A DNA stretch of 64,000 bases from an uncultured Curvibacter sp. (GTDB lineage Bacteria > Pseudomonadota > Gammaproteobacteria > Burkholderiales > Burkholderiaceae_C): assembly GCA_903828535.1 (NCBI GenBank), contig CAIKMN010000003.1, positions 124,001 through 188,000 of the forward strand, in the 5' to 3' direction. Made by a program: the position numbers and the translations under genes. Shown piece after piece: positions 2,473 through 63,553 of this stretch. Below the pieces are notes generated by a model. The model worked only from the letters and a program-made list of their open reading frames with translations. It was not told the origin of the DNA and made no database searches. Position 1 is the first letter of the stretch, and the number at the start of each line of letters is the position of its first letter.

Positions 2473-3774
2473 TCAAGCCCCCAACATGTCGGCCCAAATG
2501 TTGTGCGCCCAAGCTTGGGCGTATTGCCCTTCTAGCTCCGTCGGGCCTGTACTCAAGCCGCCCGAGCCCGGTACCACTTTGTAGGTGTTTTCGCTGGCGA
2601 TGTATTCGTGCACGCTGGCGACGTGGATCACCCGTTTGTCATCGACAAAGCTGTAGCAGGTGTTGTTCAACAAGGGGGTTGAATTGACGGGCAAGTCCAT
2701 CAGTTCGCTGACGATGGCGCTGGCGGCCACCTTGGCATGGCTGTTGGCCATGTGACCGCTTTTTGGCATCAAGGGCGCCGACTGAACGGAGTCGCCCAAG
2801 ACATGGACGTCCTTGTGCTCGATGGCGGCGAAGGTTTTGAAATCGACGCCGCACCAGCGTTGGTTGGCCTTGTTGTTGAGGCCCATGGTTTGGGCAATCA
2901 GGCCCGCCCGCATCGGCGGCAAGGCGTTGATGACGTCGGCTTTCACTTCGCCTTGCACCTCAAAGTTCATCCAGTGGCCTGAGCCACTCACCGCCATTAG
3001 TTTGTGCAGGGGTCTGTACTCCACCATGCCGGGATAGGCCTCGGCCCAGACTTTTTTAAACAAAGCGGCTTTGGAGGTGATGTCCGGGTTTTCGTCCAAC
3101 ACCAACACCTTGCTCTTGGGTTTGTGGTTTTTGAAATACCACGCCACTTGGCAAGCCCGCTCGTAAGGTCCCGGTGGGCAGCGGTAGGGCGCTTCAGGGA
3201 TGGTGATGGCGAAAACCCCGCCGTCGGGCATGGCTTCAAGTTGGCGCCGCAACGCCAAGGTTTCAGGTCCGGCTTTCCATGCCTGCAAAATCAAGCCTTG
3301 GTCGTGACTTTCCGACAAGCCTTGCACCTTGTCCATCATGAGTTCCACCCCCGGGGAGACGATCAGCTTGTCATAGCTGACCTGGAGGTAGTTGTCCAGG
3401 CTGATTGTTTTGGCCTGCGTGTCCACGCGCTTCGCGCGGGCTTTGACCACCGTGACACCGTACTTTTTCTGTAGCAAGTCATAGGAGCTGGTCAAGGACG
3501 CCAGGGTCGTGGCGCCAGACAAGACCAAGTTCGATAAGGGGCATGAAATGAATTGAGCGTCGGGCTCGATCAACATGACCTGCACATTTTGGCGGCTCAG
3601 GAGTCGGATGTATTTGGCCGCGGTGGCGCCGCCAAAGCCGCCGCCGATGATCACGACCTGGGCCTTCGCAGCGCCGCTCATGGCCAGGGCGCTAAAGGGG
3701 TGAGCGCCAAGCGCCAGCGATCCACCGGCCCATTTCAAAAAGTCTCGGCGAAGTGATGGGTTTGGGTGCTTCAT
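2473..3774 (-). CDS. fccB: Sulfide dehydrogenase flavoprotein subunit (flavocytochrome c, SoxF/FccB)
   Basis: This is the FAD subunit of flavocytochrome c, which oxidises sulfide or sulfane sulfur in the periplasm and passes electrons to the cytochrome subunit. A Tat signal is visible (SLRRDFLKWAGG, residues 7-18). The FAD-binding GGGFGG lies at 44-49. Cys78 in FISCPLSN matches the cysteine that binds FAD covalently in the Allochromatium enzyme, and Cys199 (YRCPPGPYERA) and Cys373 (NTCYSFVDD) match its redox disulfide; these assignments are by family analogy. Length 433 is normal. The start codon overlaps the fccA stop by four bases (ATGA), so the two subunits are translationally coupled. The pair faces away from soxC. 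Confidence 0.93.
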   Translation of the reverse strand: MKHPNPSLRRDFLKWAGGSLALGAHPFSALAMSGAAKAQVVIIGGGFGGATAAKYIRLLSRQNVQVMLIEPDAQFISCPLSNLVLSGATTLASLTSSYDLLQKKYGVTVVKARAKRVDTQAKTISLDNYLQVSYDKLIVSPGVELMMDKVQGLSESHDQGLILQAWKAGPETLALRRQLEAMPDGGVFAITIPEAPYRCPPGPYERACQVAWYFKNHKPKSKVLVLDENPDITSKAALFKKVWAEAYPGMVEYRPLHKLMAVSGSGHWMNFEVQGEVKADVINALPPMRAGLIAQTMGLNNKANQRWCGVDFKTFAAIEHKDVHVLGDSVQSAPLMPKSGHMANSHAKVAASAIVSELMDLPVNSTPLLNNTCYSFVDDKRVIHVASVHEYIASENTYKVVPGSGGLSTGPTELEGQYAQAWAHNIWADMLGA

Positions 3775-58573: not shown

Positions 58574-59335
58574 TTAACCGACCAGGGCTTTGACTGCCAA
58601 ATAAAGCACAGACGGGCCCATCAGACAGCCCAGGCCTGTGTGGAATGTGGCGACCAAAGCACCGTAAGGCACCAAACGGCGGTCGGTCGCGGCCAGCCCG
58701 GCTGAGACGCCGCTCACGGTACCCGCCAGACCGCCAAACACCATGGCGGAGCGGGGTGAGTTGAGCCCCATGAAGCGCGCCAACATGGGCGTGAATACCA
58801 TCACCATGATGGCTTTGACAACGCCGGTTGCAATCGACAGGGCCATGATGTCGGAACTGGCGCCAATGGCGGCGCCGGTCACGGGGCCGACGATGTAGGT
58901 CACCGCGCCGGCGCCGATGGTGGTCATGTCAATCGCGCTGGTGTAGCCCATGCTGTAAGCCACGCTGGCGCCGAAGATAAAGGGAATGAGGGTTCCTAAG
59001 AACAATGAAACGACGCCAATCAGACCGGCTTTGCGGGCTTGGATGACGTTGACCTCAAACGCGGTGGCCACGATGGCAAAGTCTCGCATCATGGCGCCAC
59101 CCATCAACCCAATGCCACCAAAAATTTTTATATCGGACAAACCTTTGGTGCCACCTGTTTCAAGGCCGCCCCAATAGGCCAAGCCAAGCCCCATCAGGAT
59201 CGCGATGGCCGAGCCGTGAACGCGGCCCAATGTCAGGTAGCGCGACAGTTTGCCGGAGATATAAACAATCAGGCCAATGAAGGCAAAGGCGAATATGAGG
59301 CTGTTGCTGGTGAGGGCGTTTTGTAATTCGTGCAT
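58574..59335 (-). CDS. madM: Malonate transporter subunit MadM
   Basis: MadM is the large membrane subunit of the sodium-linked MadLM malonate carrier first described in Malonomonas rubra. The 254 residues include about eight hydrophobic segments. Gly- and Ala-rich stretches such as IFGGIGLMGGAMMRDFAIVATAFEV and YIVGPVTGAAIGASSDIMAL match the family. ATG 59335 was chosen over the longer open frame, which starts inside madL. It follows madL by 77 bp. Confidence 0.92.
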   Translation of the reverse strand: MHELQNALTSNSLIFAFAFIGLIVYISGKLSRYLTLGRVHGSAIAILMGLGLAYWGGLETGGTKGLSDIKIFGGIGLMGGAMMRDFAIVATAFEVNVIQARKAGLIGVVSLFLGTLIPFIFGASVAYSMGYTSAIDMTTIGAGAVTYIVGPVTGAAIGASSDIMALSIATGVVKAIMVMVFTPMLARFMGLNSPRSAMVFGGLAGTVSGVSAGLAATDRRLVPYGALVATFHTGLGCLMGPSVLYLAVKALVG

Positions 59336-59412
59336 GGTGTTCTTTGACCGTAATTTTCTCTTTGTAGGTGGGGCTTTAGAGGCGCAATGGGGTTGATTCA
59401 GACGCTTGGTAA

Positions 59413-59817
59413 TTAAGCGTGTGATTCCTTTGCGGCGGACTCTTTCCAAGATTCATCTTGGTCTTGGGGGCCTAAGCGGTTGATCAAAGCAATCGTGCCA
59501 GCGCACAAGAGCACAGAGCCCAAGGCGGCGATGACCGCCACAGGGCCGCCACGCATCGCCGCCATGACGTTTTGCTGAGCAGCCATGGCCACCACGACGG
59601 GGATGTACATGAGGGACCAAAACTCAACACCGGCTTCGGTCATTTTGGTCATCAAGCCCTGCTGACGCATCCAAAGCCGAACTGAAATCAGCAAGATCAT
59701 GGCAATCCCCACCCCCCCGACGTTGGCTTTGACGCCAATCGCGATGCCCAGCAGATCGCCAATGTAGGCGCCCAGCAGGTGACAAGCGGCCAAGAGAGCG
59801 GTTCCGTAAATGATCAT
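59413..59817 (-). CDS. madL: Malonate transporter subunit MadL
   Basis: MadL is the small subunit of the malonate carrier. The 134 residues hold three or four hydrophobic segments, with GAYIGDLLGIAIGVKANVGGVGIAM near residue 16-41 and EFWSLMYIPVVVAMAAQQNVMAAM near 65. AAAGGAAAC precedes ATG 59817. It is the first gene of madLM and is divergent from the GntR regulator across 68 bp. Confidence 0.92.
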   Translation of the reverse strand: MIIYGTALLAACHLLGAYIGDLLGIAIGVKANVGGVGIAMILLISVRLWMRQQGLMTKMTEAGVEFWSLMYIPVVVAMAAQQNVMAAMRGGPVAVIAALGSVLLCAGTIALINRLGPQDQDESWKESAAKESHA

Positions 59818-59842
59818 GGTGTTTCCTTTTTTGATTTTTGGG

Positions 59843-59850
59843 ATTATAAT
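59843..59850. promoter_or_regulatory. Overlapping divergent -10 boxes in the madL-matR gap
   Basis: TATAAT is present on the plus strand at 59845-59850 and on the minus strand at 59843-59848. Both are at a plausible distance from the matR and madL starts. No clear -35 boxes are seen. Confidence 0.4.
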
Positions 59851-59884
59851 TATCCATAATTATTTGTAATTAAGGGTAATTACC
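59846..59884. promoter_or_regulatory. Phased TAATTA array, likely operator of the malonate regulator
   Basis: Four 8-bp motifs stand exactly 10 bp apart: ATAATTAT (59846-59853), ATAATTAT (59856-59863), GTAATTAA (59866-59873) and GTAATTAC (59876-59883). The last sits within the perfect palindrome GGTAATTACC (59875-59884). They lie on one face of the helix, cover the divergent -10 boxes, and end 2 bp before the regulator's ATG. A palindromic site of this kind is expected for a GntR-type dimer, and several in register suggest cooperative binding (inference). Confidence 0.6.
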
Positions 59885-59885
59885 A

Positions 59886-60587
59886 ATGTCCTCTGACCCC
59901 AAGTTCCAGTCTTTGCACCAAGAAGTCGCGGACCGTTTGCGGGAGCAAATTTTTTGTGGGCAGTTGTTACCCGGTGATTTTTTAGAGGAAAGCCAACTCT
60001 GCGAAGTGCTTTCCATCTCCCGCACCCCCCTTCGTGAGGCGCTGAAAGTGTTGACCGCCGAAGGCCTGTTGCGCCACGAACCGAGGCGCGGGTGTTTTGT
60101 GAACCAAGTGACCGAACAAGATTTGGACGACATCTTTCCGGCCTTGGCTTTGCTCGAAGGCCGTTGTGCATTTGAGGCAACGAACCGCGCCACCGAGGCA
60201 GACCTCTCGGCGCTCGAGGTCATGCACCAAGCCTTAGAGGCCTTTGGCAAGTCGGGTCAACTGAATGAGTACTACACCATGAATTTTCAGATTCATGAGG
60301 TGTTCATCGCCCTGGCTGGGAATCGCTGGATCAGCCAAATGATTGGCGACTTGAGAAAAGTCTTGAAGTTGTCCAGGCAACAGCAACTCCGTGTTCCCGG
60401 TCGTTTAGAAAGCAGTCTGCAAGAGCACTTGGCCCTCTTTAAGGCCATGAAAGCCAGAGATCCAAAGGCCGCGGAGCAAACCATGCGCCATCACATCGAG
60501 TCTCAGCGTGAGGCCTTAAAGCAACTTCAAAGTTCGGTGCTGAATCCGGCCATTCAACTTCTTGAAAGAAAGGGCGCTCTCCAATGA
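59886..60587 (+). CDS. GntR-family regulator (FCD type), probable malonate repressor
   Basis: A 233-residue regulator. The N-terminal winged helix (about residues 15-75) contains LREQIFCGQLLPGDFLEE, SISRTPLREALKVLTAEGLL, which are typical of FadR/GntR. The FCD domain follows, with the metal-binding Asp/His/His residues expected near 95-215. It is next to malonate genes and divergent from madLM, so a role like MatR, which responds to malonate and controls matABC, is inferred. AAGGG at 59872-59876 is the only ribosome site and lies within the operator array. The stop overlaps the next gene by four bases. Confidence 0.85.
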   Translation: MSSDPKFQSLHQEVADRLREQIFCGQLLPGDFLEESQLCEVLSISRTPLREALKVLTAEGLLRHEPRRGCFVNQVTEQDLDDIFPALALLEGRCAFEATNRATEADLSALEVMHQALEAFGKSGQLNEYYTMNFQIHEVFIALAGNRWISQMIGDLRKVLKLSRQQQLRVPGRLESSLQEHLALFKAMKARDPKAAEQTMRHHIESQREALKQLQSSVLNPAIQLLERKGALQ

Positions 60588-61987
60588 ACACACCCACTTG
60601 GTTAAGCCGTGGTGTCGGCAAATTGTTGTCTGCCAAAGAGGGGCAGCGGTCTTGCGCTGAGCGCATGGAAGCCACCTTGCGCCAAGGCCAAGAGGCCATG
60701 TCACCGCGCATGCTTCGCCGGACCTATGAGTTGCTTCGGGGCATCATCGATCCGCGTGTCAGTGAAGTGGAAGGCGGTCGACGCGCTGAAGCCTTTGCTG
60801 CGCTCTACCAAGCTGGAACGATCGAACGACGCAAAGACGTTTGGCTCTTGATGAGCGAAATGTTTGTGGCCGACCAAAAGAAAACCAAAGAAGCCCAAGA
60901 CAAATTTGCCGCGGCCATCGGCACGCCCGATGAAGCGGTCGCTGAGGTGCATTACCGCCGCGCCACGGTGTCGCCGCGTCGTCGTTTGTTGCAACGCTTC
61001 AGCGTCTACCCCGACGGCGTTCAATTTTTGGTGGATTTGCGGGCGGAGTTGCAAAGCGCTTTGAAATCCGACAAGCGCCTCGAAGCACTCGACGTTGAGA
61101 TGGAATACATGTTCTCAACTTGGTTCGATGTGGGCTTCTTGGAACTGCGTCGCATGAGCTGGAACTCGCCAGCCTCTTTGATCGAAAAGCTGATTCAATA
61201 CGAAGCCGTCCACGACATCAAAAGCTGGGCCGATGTCAAAAATCGGCTCGACAGTGACCGCCGTTGCTATGGCTTCTTTCACCCGCGTTTGCCCGACATT
61301 CCTCTGATTTTTGTGGAAGTCGCCTTGGTCGATGAAATCGCCAGTGACATCGTTCCTTTGCTTGACGAACTGGGTGCCGAGGCCGATTTGCAAAAGGCCA
61401 CCACCGCTATTTTTTATTCCATCAGCAATACCCAAGTGGGCTTGCGCGGAGTGAGCTTTGGCGACTCGCTCATCAAAGCCGTGGTTGAGAAATTAAAACA
61501 AGAATTCCCGCGCCTCAAGGTCTTTGCCACGCTGTCGCCCATTCCGGGTTACCGCGCTTGGTTGGAGAAAAACATCGCCGGCTTGCTTGAAAAGCTCGAC
61601 GCCAAAGAGCGCCGGGCTTTGGGTCGGGCCGTGGGCTTTGAGCCGCCAGCGGCGACTCACTTTTTGGCAGCCTTGGCGTCGCCCTTGCAGCTGCCTGAAA
61701 AATCACTGGTGCGCCAATACCTCATGCGCTTTGCCGCCGAGTATTTGGGCCGCCTGAACGCGAAAGGGCAGCCCAATGACCCCGTGGCCCGTTTCCATTT
61801 GGGCAACGGCGCACGCGTCGATCGGTTGAATTGGGCGGGCGACCCCTCCCCCAAAGGCCTCAAGCAGTCTTACGGTTTGATGGTGAATTATTTGTACGAC
61901 CTCAAACGCTTGGATAAAAATCGAGCGCTGTTGGCCGACGGTACTGTGCCGGTTTCAGGTGACGTTGAAGATTTGATGCTGAATTAA
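60584..61987 (+). CDS. Malonyl-CoA decarboxylase
   Basis: A 467-residue malonyl-CoA decarboxylase, which releases CO2 to give acetyl-CoA (matA in malonate operons). The family's helical N-terminal part is followed by a GNAT-fold catalytic part. The catalytic Ser is in FATLSPIPGYRAWLEKN near 315, and the catalytic His is in FHLGNGARVDRLNW near 405; HPRLPDIPLIFVEVAL near 230 is also conserved. ATG 60584 overlaps the regulator stop by four bases (ATGA), so regulator and enzyme are coupled, unusual for a repressor. Confidence 0.94.
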   Translation: MNTPTWLSRGVGKLLSAKEGQRSCAERMEATLRQGQEAMSPRMLRRTYELLRGIIDPRVSEVEGGRRAEAFAALYQAGTIERRKDVWLLMSEMFVADQKKTKEAQDKFAAAIGTPDEAVAEVHYRRATVSPRRRLLQRFSVYPDGVQFLVDLRAELQSALKSDKRLEALDVEMEYMFSTWFDVGFLELRRMSWNSPASLIEKLIQYEAVHDIKSWADVKNRLDSDRRCYGFFHPRLPDIPLIFVEVALVDEIASDIVPLLDELGAEADLQKATTAIFYSISNTQVGLRGVSFGDSLIKAVVEKLKQEFPRLKVFATLSPIPGYRAWLEKNIAGLLEKLDAKERRALGRAVGFEPPAATHFLAALASPLQLPEKSLVRQYLMRFAAEYLGRLNAKGQPNDPVARFHLGNGARVDRLNWAGDPSPKGLKQSYGLMVNYLYDLKRLDKNRALLADGTVPVSGDVEDLMLN

Positions 61988-61999
61988 AAAAGGAAAGAA

Positions 62000-63553
62000 A
62001 TGACAACCCCGACTCAAAATTCCAACCTGTTCAACGCCATCCGTTCCGCCTTCCCTGAAGACCTCAGCGCCGTGGCGGTGGAGGCTGACAACGGCAAAAC
62101 CTACAGCTGGGCCGACTTGGATGCACAGTCCGCGCAAATGGCCAATTTACTGGCTTCTTTGAACCTGCCGGCGGGCTCTCGGGTCGCGGTGCAGGTTGAA
62201 AAATCGGTCGAGGCCATGATGTTGTACTTGGCGACTTTGCGAACCGGTTTGGTTTTTTTGCCCCTTAACACCGCCTATCAAAGCGCTGAAATGGCTTATT
62301 TCATTGGCAACGCGGAGCCCGGAGTGCTGGTCTGCACGTCGAAGAATTTACCTTGGGTCAGTGAGTTGGCAAAGGCGGCCGGTACGCAACACGTCTGGAC
62401 CCTGGACGACAACCAAACCGGCACTTTGCTGGAATCGGCCAAAGCACAAAGCCCCGTTCACACCCCGGTCGTCAGTGCCTCAGAAGAACTGGCCGCCATC
62501 CTCTACACCAGTGGCACGACAGGTCGCAGCAAAGGCGCGATGCTCAGCCATGGCAACTTGCTCAGCAATGCACAAACTTTGAAGCACTATTGGGGTTGGC
62601 AACAGGGTGATGTGCTGATCCATGCACTGCCGATTTTTCACGTGCATGGCTTGTTTGTGGCCATTCATGGCGCTTTGTTGAATGGCAGCAAGATGATTTG
62701 GTTGTCAAAGTTTGACCCCAAGGTCGTCCTCGCGCATCTGCCCAATGCGACCGTGTTCATGGGCGTCCCCACGCTCTATGTCCGCTTACTTGGTGAAGCC
62801 GGTTTGACCCGTGAAGCCACTCAAAACATGCGCCTGTTTGTGGCCGGCTCGGCCCCGTTATTGACCGAAACGTTCAAAGAATGGCAAGACCGCACCGGCC
62901 ACACCATTTTGGAGCGCTACGGCATGAGCGAAACGGGCATGCTGACCTCCAACCCCTATGCCTTGGACGACCGATACGCCGAGTCCGAGCGCCGTGGGGG
63001 CACGGTGGGCTTTCCGTTGCCCGGCGTGACTTTGCGCGTACAGGACGACGAGGGCGCCACCTTGGGCGTCGATGACATTGGGGGCATTCAGGTCAAAGGC
63101 CCGAATGTGTTCCAAGGCTATTGGCGCATGCCCGAAAAAACCGCCGAAGAATTCACTTCAGACGGGTATTTCAAAACCGGTGACGTGGGCAAGGTCGACG
63201 CCCGGGGCTATGTGCAAATTGTTGGCCGCGCCAAAGACTTGATCATCAGCGGGGGCTACAACGTTTACCCCGCTGAAATTGAAAGTTACATGAACGACAT
63301 GCCCGGCGTGGCTGAAAGCGCCTTGGTTGGCGTTCCACACCCTGATTTCGGAGAAGTCGGCGTGGCCGTGGTGATCGCCAAACCCGGCGCTGACTTGCAA
63401 GCCGATGCGTTGATTGGGGCCCTCAAATCGCAAGTGGCAAACTTCAAAGTGCCTAAAAAATGCTTCGTCCTCAATGAGTTGCCCCGCAATGCCATGGGCA
63501 AGGTGCAAAAGAACCTGCTGCGTGATCAATACAAAGGGTTGTTCCAAATTTAA
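62000..63553 (+). CDS. matB: Malonyl-CoA synthetase MatB
   Basis: MatB joins malonate to CoA with ATP. The 517-residue AMP-forming ligase has the P-loop YTSGTTGRSKGAMLSHGN near residue 168, the GYGMSE-like ERYGMSETGML near 308, the hinge GDVGKVDARGYVQIVGRAKD near 395, and the catalytic Lys in PRNAMGKVQKNLL near 505. AAAGGAAAG lies before ATG 62000, 12 bp after the decarboxylase gene. Other acyl-CoA ligases share these motifs, but position makes malonate the likely substrate. Confidence 0.93.
   Translation: MTTPTQNSNLFNAIRSAFPEDLSAVAVEADNGKTYSWADLDAQSAQMANLLASLNLPAGSRVAVQVEKSVEAMMLYLATLRTGLVFLPLNTAYQSAEMAYFIGNAEPGVLVCTSKNLPWVSELAKAAGTQHVWTLDDNQTGTLLESAKAQSPVHTPVVSASEELAAILYTSGTTGRSKGAMLSHGNLLSNAQTLKHYWGWQQGDVLIHALPIFHVHGLFVAIHGALLNGSKMIWLSKFDPKVVLAHLPNATVFMGVPTLYVRLLGEAGLTREATQNMRLFVAGSAPLLTETFKEWQDRTGHTILERYGMSETGMLTSNPYALDDRYAESERRGGTVGFPLPGVTLRVQDDEGATLGVDDIGGIQVKGPNVFQGYWRMPEKTAEEFTSDGYFKTGDVGKVDARGYVQIVGRAKDLIISGGYNVYPAEIESYMNDMPGVAESALVGVPHPDFGEVGVAVVIAKPGADLQADALIGALKSQVANFKVPKKCFVLNELPRNAMGKVQKNLLRDQYKGLFQI

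Follow-up and report, generated by a model that had tools for sequence, protein, structure and literature searches.

Results

A four-unit array of palindromes lies ahead of a malonate regulator gene

The window (the whole stretch of DNA analyzed here, 64,000 nucleotides) carries a complete malonate system, composed of madM, madL, a regulator gene, matA and matB. An array of four short repeated units lies in its midst. The features of the locus are as follows.

58574..59335, minus strand: madM, malonate transporter subunit (TIGR00808, 396.6 bits, cut-off 236.3)
59413..59817, minus strand: madL, malonate transporter subunit (TIGR00807, 163.5 bits, cut-off 113.45)
59831..59860, plus strand: candidate sigma-70 promoter of the regulator gene (TTGATT, 18 bp, CATAAT; 9/12 in a consensus scan)
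59843..59870, minus strand: candidate madL promoter (ATTACA, 16 bp, TATAAT; 10/12, from a consensus scan only)
59846..59853: unit 1, ATAATTAT, an extra unit kept in 4/4 madL-matR genomes of the window's clade
59856..59863: unit 2, ATAATTAT, aligned with family unit A, which merges with the CATAAT -10 hexamer
59866..59873: unit 3, GTAATTAA, aligned with family unit B, the best conserved there
59872..59876, plus strand: AAGGG, candidate Shine-Dalgarno sequence of the regulator gene, identified by eye and straddling units 3 and 4
59876..59883: unit 4, GTAATTAC, aligned with family unit C
59886..60587, plus strand: GntR/FCD regulator (matR-like), 233 aa (Pfam GntR and FCD above cut-off)
60584..61987, plus strand: matA, malonyl-CoA decarboxylase (Pfam MCD and MCD_N)
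62000..63553, plus strand: matB, malonyl-CoA synthase (NF005702, 849.2 bits, cut-off 558)

The madL and madM matches are both to NCBIfam equivalogs, above cut-off. MatR and MdcY are GntR-family regulators found beside malonate genes, and here too madLM, matA and matB adjoin the regulator.

Between the start of madL (59817, minus strand) and the ATG of the regulator gene (59886) lie 68 bp, and these hold the array. An earlier note on this DNA had described four 8-mers sharing TAATTA, one helical turn apart, and both their centers and their spacing held: TAATTA starts at 59847, 59857, 59867 and 59877, a pitch of exactly 10 bp. We also confirmed that the last unit forms a perfect 10-bp palindrome, GGTAATTACC at 59875-59884, which encloses unit 4, and that the array ends 2 bp ahead of the ATG. 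The note had further placed both divergent -10 boxes under the array. This stands for the rightward candidate CATAAT (59855-59860), which sits over unit 2, but not for the leftward TATAAT (59848 to 59843, minus strand), which shares only three bases with unit 1. The -35 element of the candidate madL promoter (ATTACA) is poor and is located in unit 3. A fifth TAATTA in the window (59410-59415), at the end of madL and at the same distance in the relative L006, was taken as coding sequence.

Chance, or an AT-rich background, was considered as the origin of the array and ruled out by shuffles, by a whole-genome pattern search and, above all, by the relatives described below. TAATTA occurs five times in the 64-kb window versus 1.53 times expected from shuffles, with four of the five occurrences inside the array. 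When the 68-bp gap was shuffled 20,000 times at the dinucleotide level, two or more copies fell into 10-bp phase in nine shuffles, and three or four never did. The exact pair TAATTA-N4-TAATTA was found in the window's own genome (2,337,972 bases) at the array site only; with up to two mismatches, the pair was at background level in the same genome (21 sites per strand versus 24 for a backward control).

The regulator has the features of a canonical FCD protein

The regulator combines an N-terminal GntR winged helix (Pfam GntR, 66.4 bits, cut-off 27) with a C-terminal FCD domain (102.8 bits, cut-off 24.3), which places it among the FCD (FadR/VanR-type) members of the GntR superfamily. Its best NCBIfam match, phnR_burk (TIGR03338), stayed below the curated cut-off (126.6 versus 271.5 bits). 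The histidines of the FCD metal site (H137, H181 and H203) and the DNA-contact positions (E35, R46, T47 and R50) are invariant in an alignment of 35 sequences, these roles being assigned by analogy with Atu1419 (PMC7797058) and from background on FCD regulators. The structure model is a confident one (mean pLDDT 87.2), with low confidence only at residues 1-6 and 218-233, and its helix 1 begins at residue 10. Among solved structures, its closest folds are those of a Brucella GntR protein, Atu1419/VanR, Lar, PmiR and McbR; the fold neighbors are FCD regulators, and ranks 3-20 include many Atu1419 chains. As modeled, the protein is a canonical FCD regulator.

A unit pair at exactly one turn is kept in all 88 family loci

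We collected related loci from two sources: a scan of genome contigs, from which the best 80 of 90 relatives were taken, and a search of 299 family genomes, which added 30 loci. Both searches combined gave 112 loci, three of them from the window's own genome. The genera represented are Curvibacter, Polaromonas, Ramlibacter, Limnohabitans, Hydrogenophaga, Rhodoferax and Acidovorax; many relatives are MAGs assigned only to Burkholderiales or Betaproteobacteria, and "Comamonadaceae-type" is a working label. Left out of the counts were L016, L035 and L044, for which the script found no in-frame start (the array is visible by eye in each); L078, which comes without upstream DNA; L002, L003, L076, L077, L079, L081 and L083, as loci of lower identity or paralogs; and L070 and L074, as non-family orthologs. 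Eleven near-duplicates were removed (L004, L071-L073, L084, L085, L088, L091, L093, L102 and L107). This left a final set of 88 dereplicated loci, whose regulators are 57% or more identical to that of the window. For the logo and the unit counts, the anchor was set by hand on unit 2 in L001, L005 and L006.

The 10-bp phasing that the earlier note proposed to look for in related Comamonadaceae is kept in 88/88 dereplicated loci: each carries a pair of units, with at most one mismatch each to RTAATTAY, at exactly 10 bp, which supports the spaced motifs as an operator-like element tied to the GntR/FCD regulator. Two units are exact in 73/88 loci. Among other spacings up to 60 bp, 20 bp was found in 45 loci and every other spacing in four loci or fewer. 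Upstream of the regulator, exact RTAATTAY occurs 166 times in 22,866 bp, whereas the remaining 288,022 bp of these loci contain none (mean GC 0.618). The earlier note gave TAATTA as the shared word; the conserved word is the longer palindrome RTAATTAY, as seen in the logo described below.

The same note had treated the array as a feature of the divergent madL-matR promoter, and this had to be corrected. We found madL in only 4/112 loci (the window, L004, L005 and L006), all of the window's clade and with madL divergent from the regulator in each. The divergent arrangement was rejected as the cause of the array, which also occurs with lgt or other genes upstream. Across the final set, matA lies downstream of the regulator in 85/88 loci and lgt lies upstream, in the same orientation, in 55/88. 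This places the array within the promoter of the regulator itself. When the four madL-matR gaps were aligned, TAATTA columns were kept in 23/24 cases versus 20/44 for other columns, and the non-core columns were kept in 7/14 cases inside the array and 11/28 in the leader. The gap of L006 is 20 bp longer, with the surplus outside the array, and its third unit is degenerate (GTTATTAG).

The array overlaps promoter-like sequence

If up to two mismatches are allowed per unit, the 88 loci divide into 25 with two in-phase units, 53 with three and 10 with four, and a third unit at this stringency is present in 62/88. The four units of the earlier note thus hold for the window's clade but are unusual family-wide (10/88), the three-unit form being the commonest (53/88).

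A logo was built from 85 aligned arrays, leaving out the window's clade. Its units stand at 0 and 10, and more weakly at 20, with conservation in the order B > A > C: unit A reads C-ATAATTA-C, unit B GTAATTAC, and the weaker unit C (A/G)AAATTAC. In units A and B, the core T and A next to AATT are conserved at 95-100% and 97-100%, and unit B contains GT-AATT-AC (G 74%, C 64%), a GntR-type GT...AC palindrome with its boxes within the 2-4 nt range. The flanks are flat except for T-T-G, which is enriched in the 85 relatives at -24 to -22, i.e., with a 17-bp spacer before CATAAT. The correspondence of the window's units 2, 3 and 4 to family units A, B and C was chosen by alignment, and by our alignment unit 1 would be an addition towards madL.

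At least four of the six TTGACA positions match in 33/88 loci when the spacer is 16-18 bp; with control spacers of 6-8, 26-28 and 36-38 bp, the counts among the 88 loci are 13, 9 and 21. This -35 enrichment is real but modest, and not clean. The family pattern has the appearance expected of a sigma-70 promoter in which the -10 hexamer is merged with unit A, unit B falls near the start site and unit C follows directly. In its commonest, three-unit form, the array spans the -10 box and the probable start of the promoter serving the regulator gene.

DNA in which AATT tracts recur about once per turn is expected to bend. The units contain such tracts and overlap the -10 hexamers, as they would if the motif were no more than AT-rich DNA of a promoter, or AATT tracts in helical phase that bend it, with no specific reader. 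However, bending would need neither the strongly conserved T and A beside AATT nor the R/Y ends, and it would not restrict the word to the DNA upstream of the regulator (0 in 288,022 bp elsewhere). The flanks, moreover, are randomized while the units are kept. We regard this explanation as highly implausible.

Sister regulators and distant orthologs keep a unit but no one-turn partner

We then compared the family with regulators outside it. An RTAATTA unit lies within 260 bp upstream of sister regulators (44-51% identical) in 20/21 loci. AATT was found at +10 of this unit in 0/20 loci and at +7 in 9/20 (L147-L166), a pitch unlike the 10 bp of the malonate regulators. The sister gene of the window's own genome (L130, at about 3,800, C10) faces a large methylmalonyl-CoA mutase-like gene (by eye); its gene context therefore differs. 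A lone unit with no partner at 10 bp was likewise seen in seven distant orthologs and in three further Cupriavidus loci, and five Cupriavidus/Ralstonia orthologs (L070-L074) show this state. In L070-L074 (Cupriavidus/Ralstonia), L076, L077, L079, L081 and L083, the unit stands in the context ATCC-ATAATTAT-GAAT or similar; in several non-family orthologs it lies just downstream of a TTGACA-like sequence, a single-unit form at the same regulator.

The earlier note held that the array would be AT-rich background if related genomes kept the genes without the spaced motifs. That condition applies to orthologs outside the family, which have a unit and no 10-bp tandem, and does not apply inside it (88/88). 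Judged by its distribution, the unit tracks the regulator lineage, and the one-turn tandem appears to be an elaboration marking one branch. Since the unit follows this lineage across gene contexts, the regulator itself is favored as its reader.

Strict two-unit matches occur mostly, but not only, ahead of the regulator

The strict pattern TAATTAYNNGTAATTAY was found in 40/299 family genomes versus 1/299 (G093) for the backward control, with one array per family genome that has a match. In 38 of the 40, the match lies 36-248 bp upstream of a listed regulator match, and the strict form is present in 38 of the 73 genomes that have such a regulator match. The window's own array misses the strict pattern because its units deviate. 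The two family exceptions are G140, where the match lies ahead of a lipoprotein-like gene, and G214, where the gap holding the match has no regulator ORF of 150 aa or longer beside it within the 5 kb examined.

An order-level search of 300 genomes gave strict matches in 14 (backward control, 4/300): the family member G087, already counted, eight genomes of the family f8, and five others (G453, with its match at a lipoprotein-like promoter, and G382, G427, G522 and G528). In the eight f8 genomes (L138-L145), a fixed 18-mer, ATAATTACCGGTAATTAT, lies ahead of a lipoprotein-like gene; a two-unit match alone therefore cannot identify a malonate operator. This lipoprotein-promoter form is a fixed 18-bp palindrome centered on CCGG, with a conservation pattern unlike that of the malonate array.

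At these sites we also noted that ATAATTACCGGTAATTAT lies at about 1501 in L138-L145 and L136, ahead of a small lipoprotein-like gene, and that L128 (G140) has ATAATTACCGGTAATTACC at 3019. By eye, the lipoprotein-like gene is flanked by cupin-like and metallo-beta-lactamase-like ORFs (L138, L136 and L128).

Because the array lies at the regulator's promoter nearly everywhere, association alone is also compatible with another protein acting there. That a protein different from the neighboring GntR regulator reads the array and controls the operon would agree with the strict two-unit matches away from the regulator (2/40 in the family, plus the lipoprotein-type promoter in another family), such as ATAATTACCGGTAATTAT in the eight f8 genomes and the G140 site. 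Yet the units accompany the regulator lineage elsewhere (20/21 sister regulators), a second regulator copy on the contig of L006 (L056) has its own array with no matA match, and the lipoprotein-promoter form, with its fixed CCGG-centered 18-bp palindrome, follows another conservation pattern. We consider a different reader very unlikely.

Discussion

The array as a predicted operator of the adjacent regulator

Starting from the observed array, with its exact pitch, its conservation, its association with the regulator and its position relative to promoter-like sequence, we think it fairly likely that the array is the operator of the adjacent GntR/FCD regulator, bound by side-by-side dimers for autorepression and released by a metabolite. 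We infer the regulator as the binder, one dimer per unit, repression, cooperativity and a malonate-type inducer. Each RTAATTAY core would hold one dimer, and neighboring dimers would line up along the same face of the helix at intervals of one turn. The 10-bp pitch leaves room for exactly such a 10-bp palindrome per dimer as is bound by Atu1419. Across the family, the two or three core units would extend from the -10 box over the probable start into the early transcribed part of the regulator-matA(-matB) operon; an occupied array would then exclude RNA polymerase, hence the proposed autorepression. In the window's clade, the fourth unit would reach the divergent madL promoter, and one array could thus shut both the malonate importer and the enzymes; since the madL -35 element is poor, control of madL is the weakest step of the proposal. 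A metabolite of the malonate pathway, held in the FCD domain, would release the array.

Dimers on the same face, 34 Å apart, may clash, and their register is ambiguous because the 2-bp spacers (ATTAC-NN-GTAAT) form further symmetry centers. A long array is not required, since 25/88 arrays have two units only. The regulator could instead bind with fewer molecules than there are units, as one dimer on unit B or on alternate units 20 bp apart, with the outer units only adding wing contacts or serving as decoys. This would suit the conservation order (B > A > C) and the 25/88 arrays with only two units; a single unit also suffices for the sister regulators, and Atu1419 needs one palindrome only (PMC7797058). 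On the other side, the exact 10-bp pitch of A and B in 88/88 loci and the third unit with at most two mismatches in 62/88 are both more than incidental contacts would seem to need. Binding by fewer molecules strikes us as unlikely, though enough of a prospect to be weighed seriously.

Returning to side-by-side dimers, we tentatively put forward a fuller version, which we hold as a possibility open to real doubt: regulator dimers with a very short footprint would load successive palindromes at exactly one helical turn, making a row that runs from the -10 box into the leader. Unlike NanR, the regulator would need no N-terminal extension for this, and in one clade the row would have grown so as to take in the divergent transporter promoter. 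Growth of the operator by the addition of one-turn units would be part of this row, and shares its tentative standing.

Relation to known GntR operators

One of the two closest precedents is E. coli NanR, whose dimers bind each repeat of (GGTATA)3 in close proximity, with an effect of spacing and with binding weakened by a metabolite (PMC8012715). The asymmetric repeats of NanR are less than half a turn apart, the dimers are offset by about half a turn, and three dimers load the three repeats cooperatively through a 32-residue N-terminal extension (PMC8012715). The malonate array resembles this system, as there described, in pairing a dimeric GntR/FCD-type regulator with tandem short sites over a catabolic promoter. 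It differs in that its units are palindromic (RTAATTAY) and one full turn apart, not GGTATA at under half a turn, and the regulator, with 233 aa and helix 1 modeled from residue 10, appears to lack the N-terminal extension.

The other, Atu1419, a VanR-type FCD repressor of Agrobacterium fabrum, binds a 10-bp palindrome, ATGTATACAT, with one dimer, over the -10 box and with autorepression; its palindromes, 190 or 109 bp apart, are joined by a tetramer via looping, and its effector is methylenetetrahydrofolate (PMC7797058). The likeness lies in an FCD regulator, among our nearest folds, with a short palindrome over a -10 box, and, by equal spacing, Glu34, Arg45, Thr46 and Arg49 of Atu1419 correspond to E35, R46, T47 and R50 here. 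No 10-bp tandem is described for Atu1419.

In FadR-subfamily sites the GT and AC boxes are separated by 2 or 3 nt, MdcY being listed among the regulators with 2 nt, compared with 4 nt in most HutC sites (PMC4494728). The GT-N4-AC of the array fits a GntR-type palindrome with the usual HutC distance of 4 nt, not the 2-3 nt of FadR. The array differs from MatR/MdcY sites, as far as that source describes them, both in this distance and in the tandem arrangement. FarR and NagQ, GntR regulators of the HutC subfamily, have direct-repeat sites (TGTATTAWTT and TGGTATT; PMC4494728). They share with the present case a GntR regulator with repeated sites, and differ in subfamily, in the words themselves and in having no palindromic units at one-turn pitch.

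The motif was not found in the literature we searched on malonate GntR operators, GTAATTAC and tandem dimers. Suvorova et al. 2012, on malonate and propionate catabolism, is cited in PMC4494728 and would be the most probable source of an earlier prediction; it lies outside that search, and its abstract reportedly announces motifs for four new regulators. Tandem GntR operators are already known; what the searched literature did not show is RTAATTAY as the word, its spacing of one turn or its conservation across the family. The malonate array is a refinement of known regulation and not a new kind of system.

If correct, our proposal would provide a family-wide operator for malonate use and, besides NanR, a second geometry for tandem GntR/FCD sites. 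With its one-turn pitch kept in 88/88 loci while the flanks drift, the array would be a good natural system for studying how dimers pack on adjacent palindromes, and the range from single-unit sisters, through arrays of two and three units, to the clade with four would form a series showing how operators grow. In practice, it predicts malonate regulons, as well as sites for malonate or malonyl-CoA sensors.

On one contig, CAISMH010000004.1, the regulator occurs twice, as L006 and L056, which are 77% and 64% identical to that of the window. L006 lies with madLM and matA, and L056 between lgt and a Bug/TctC-like substrate-binding gene, with no matA match. Each copy has its own phased array, and cross-regulation between them is possible.
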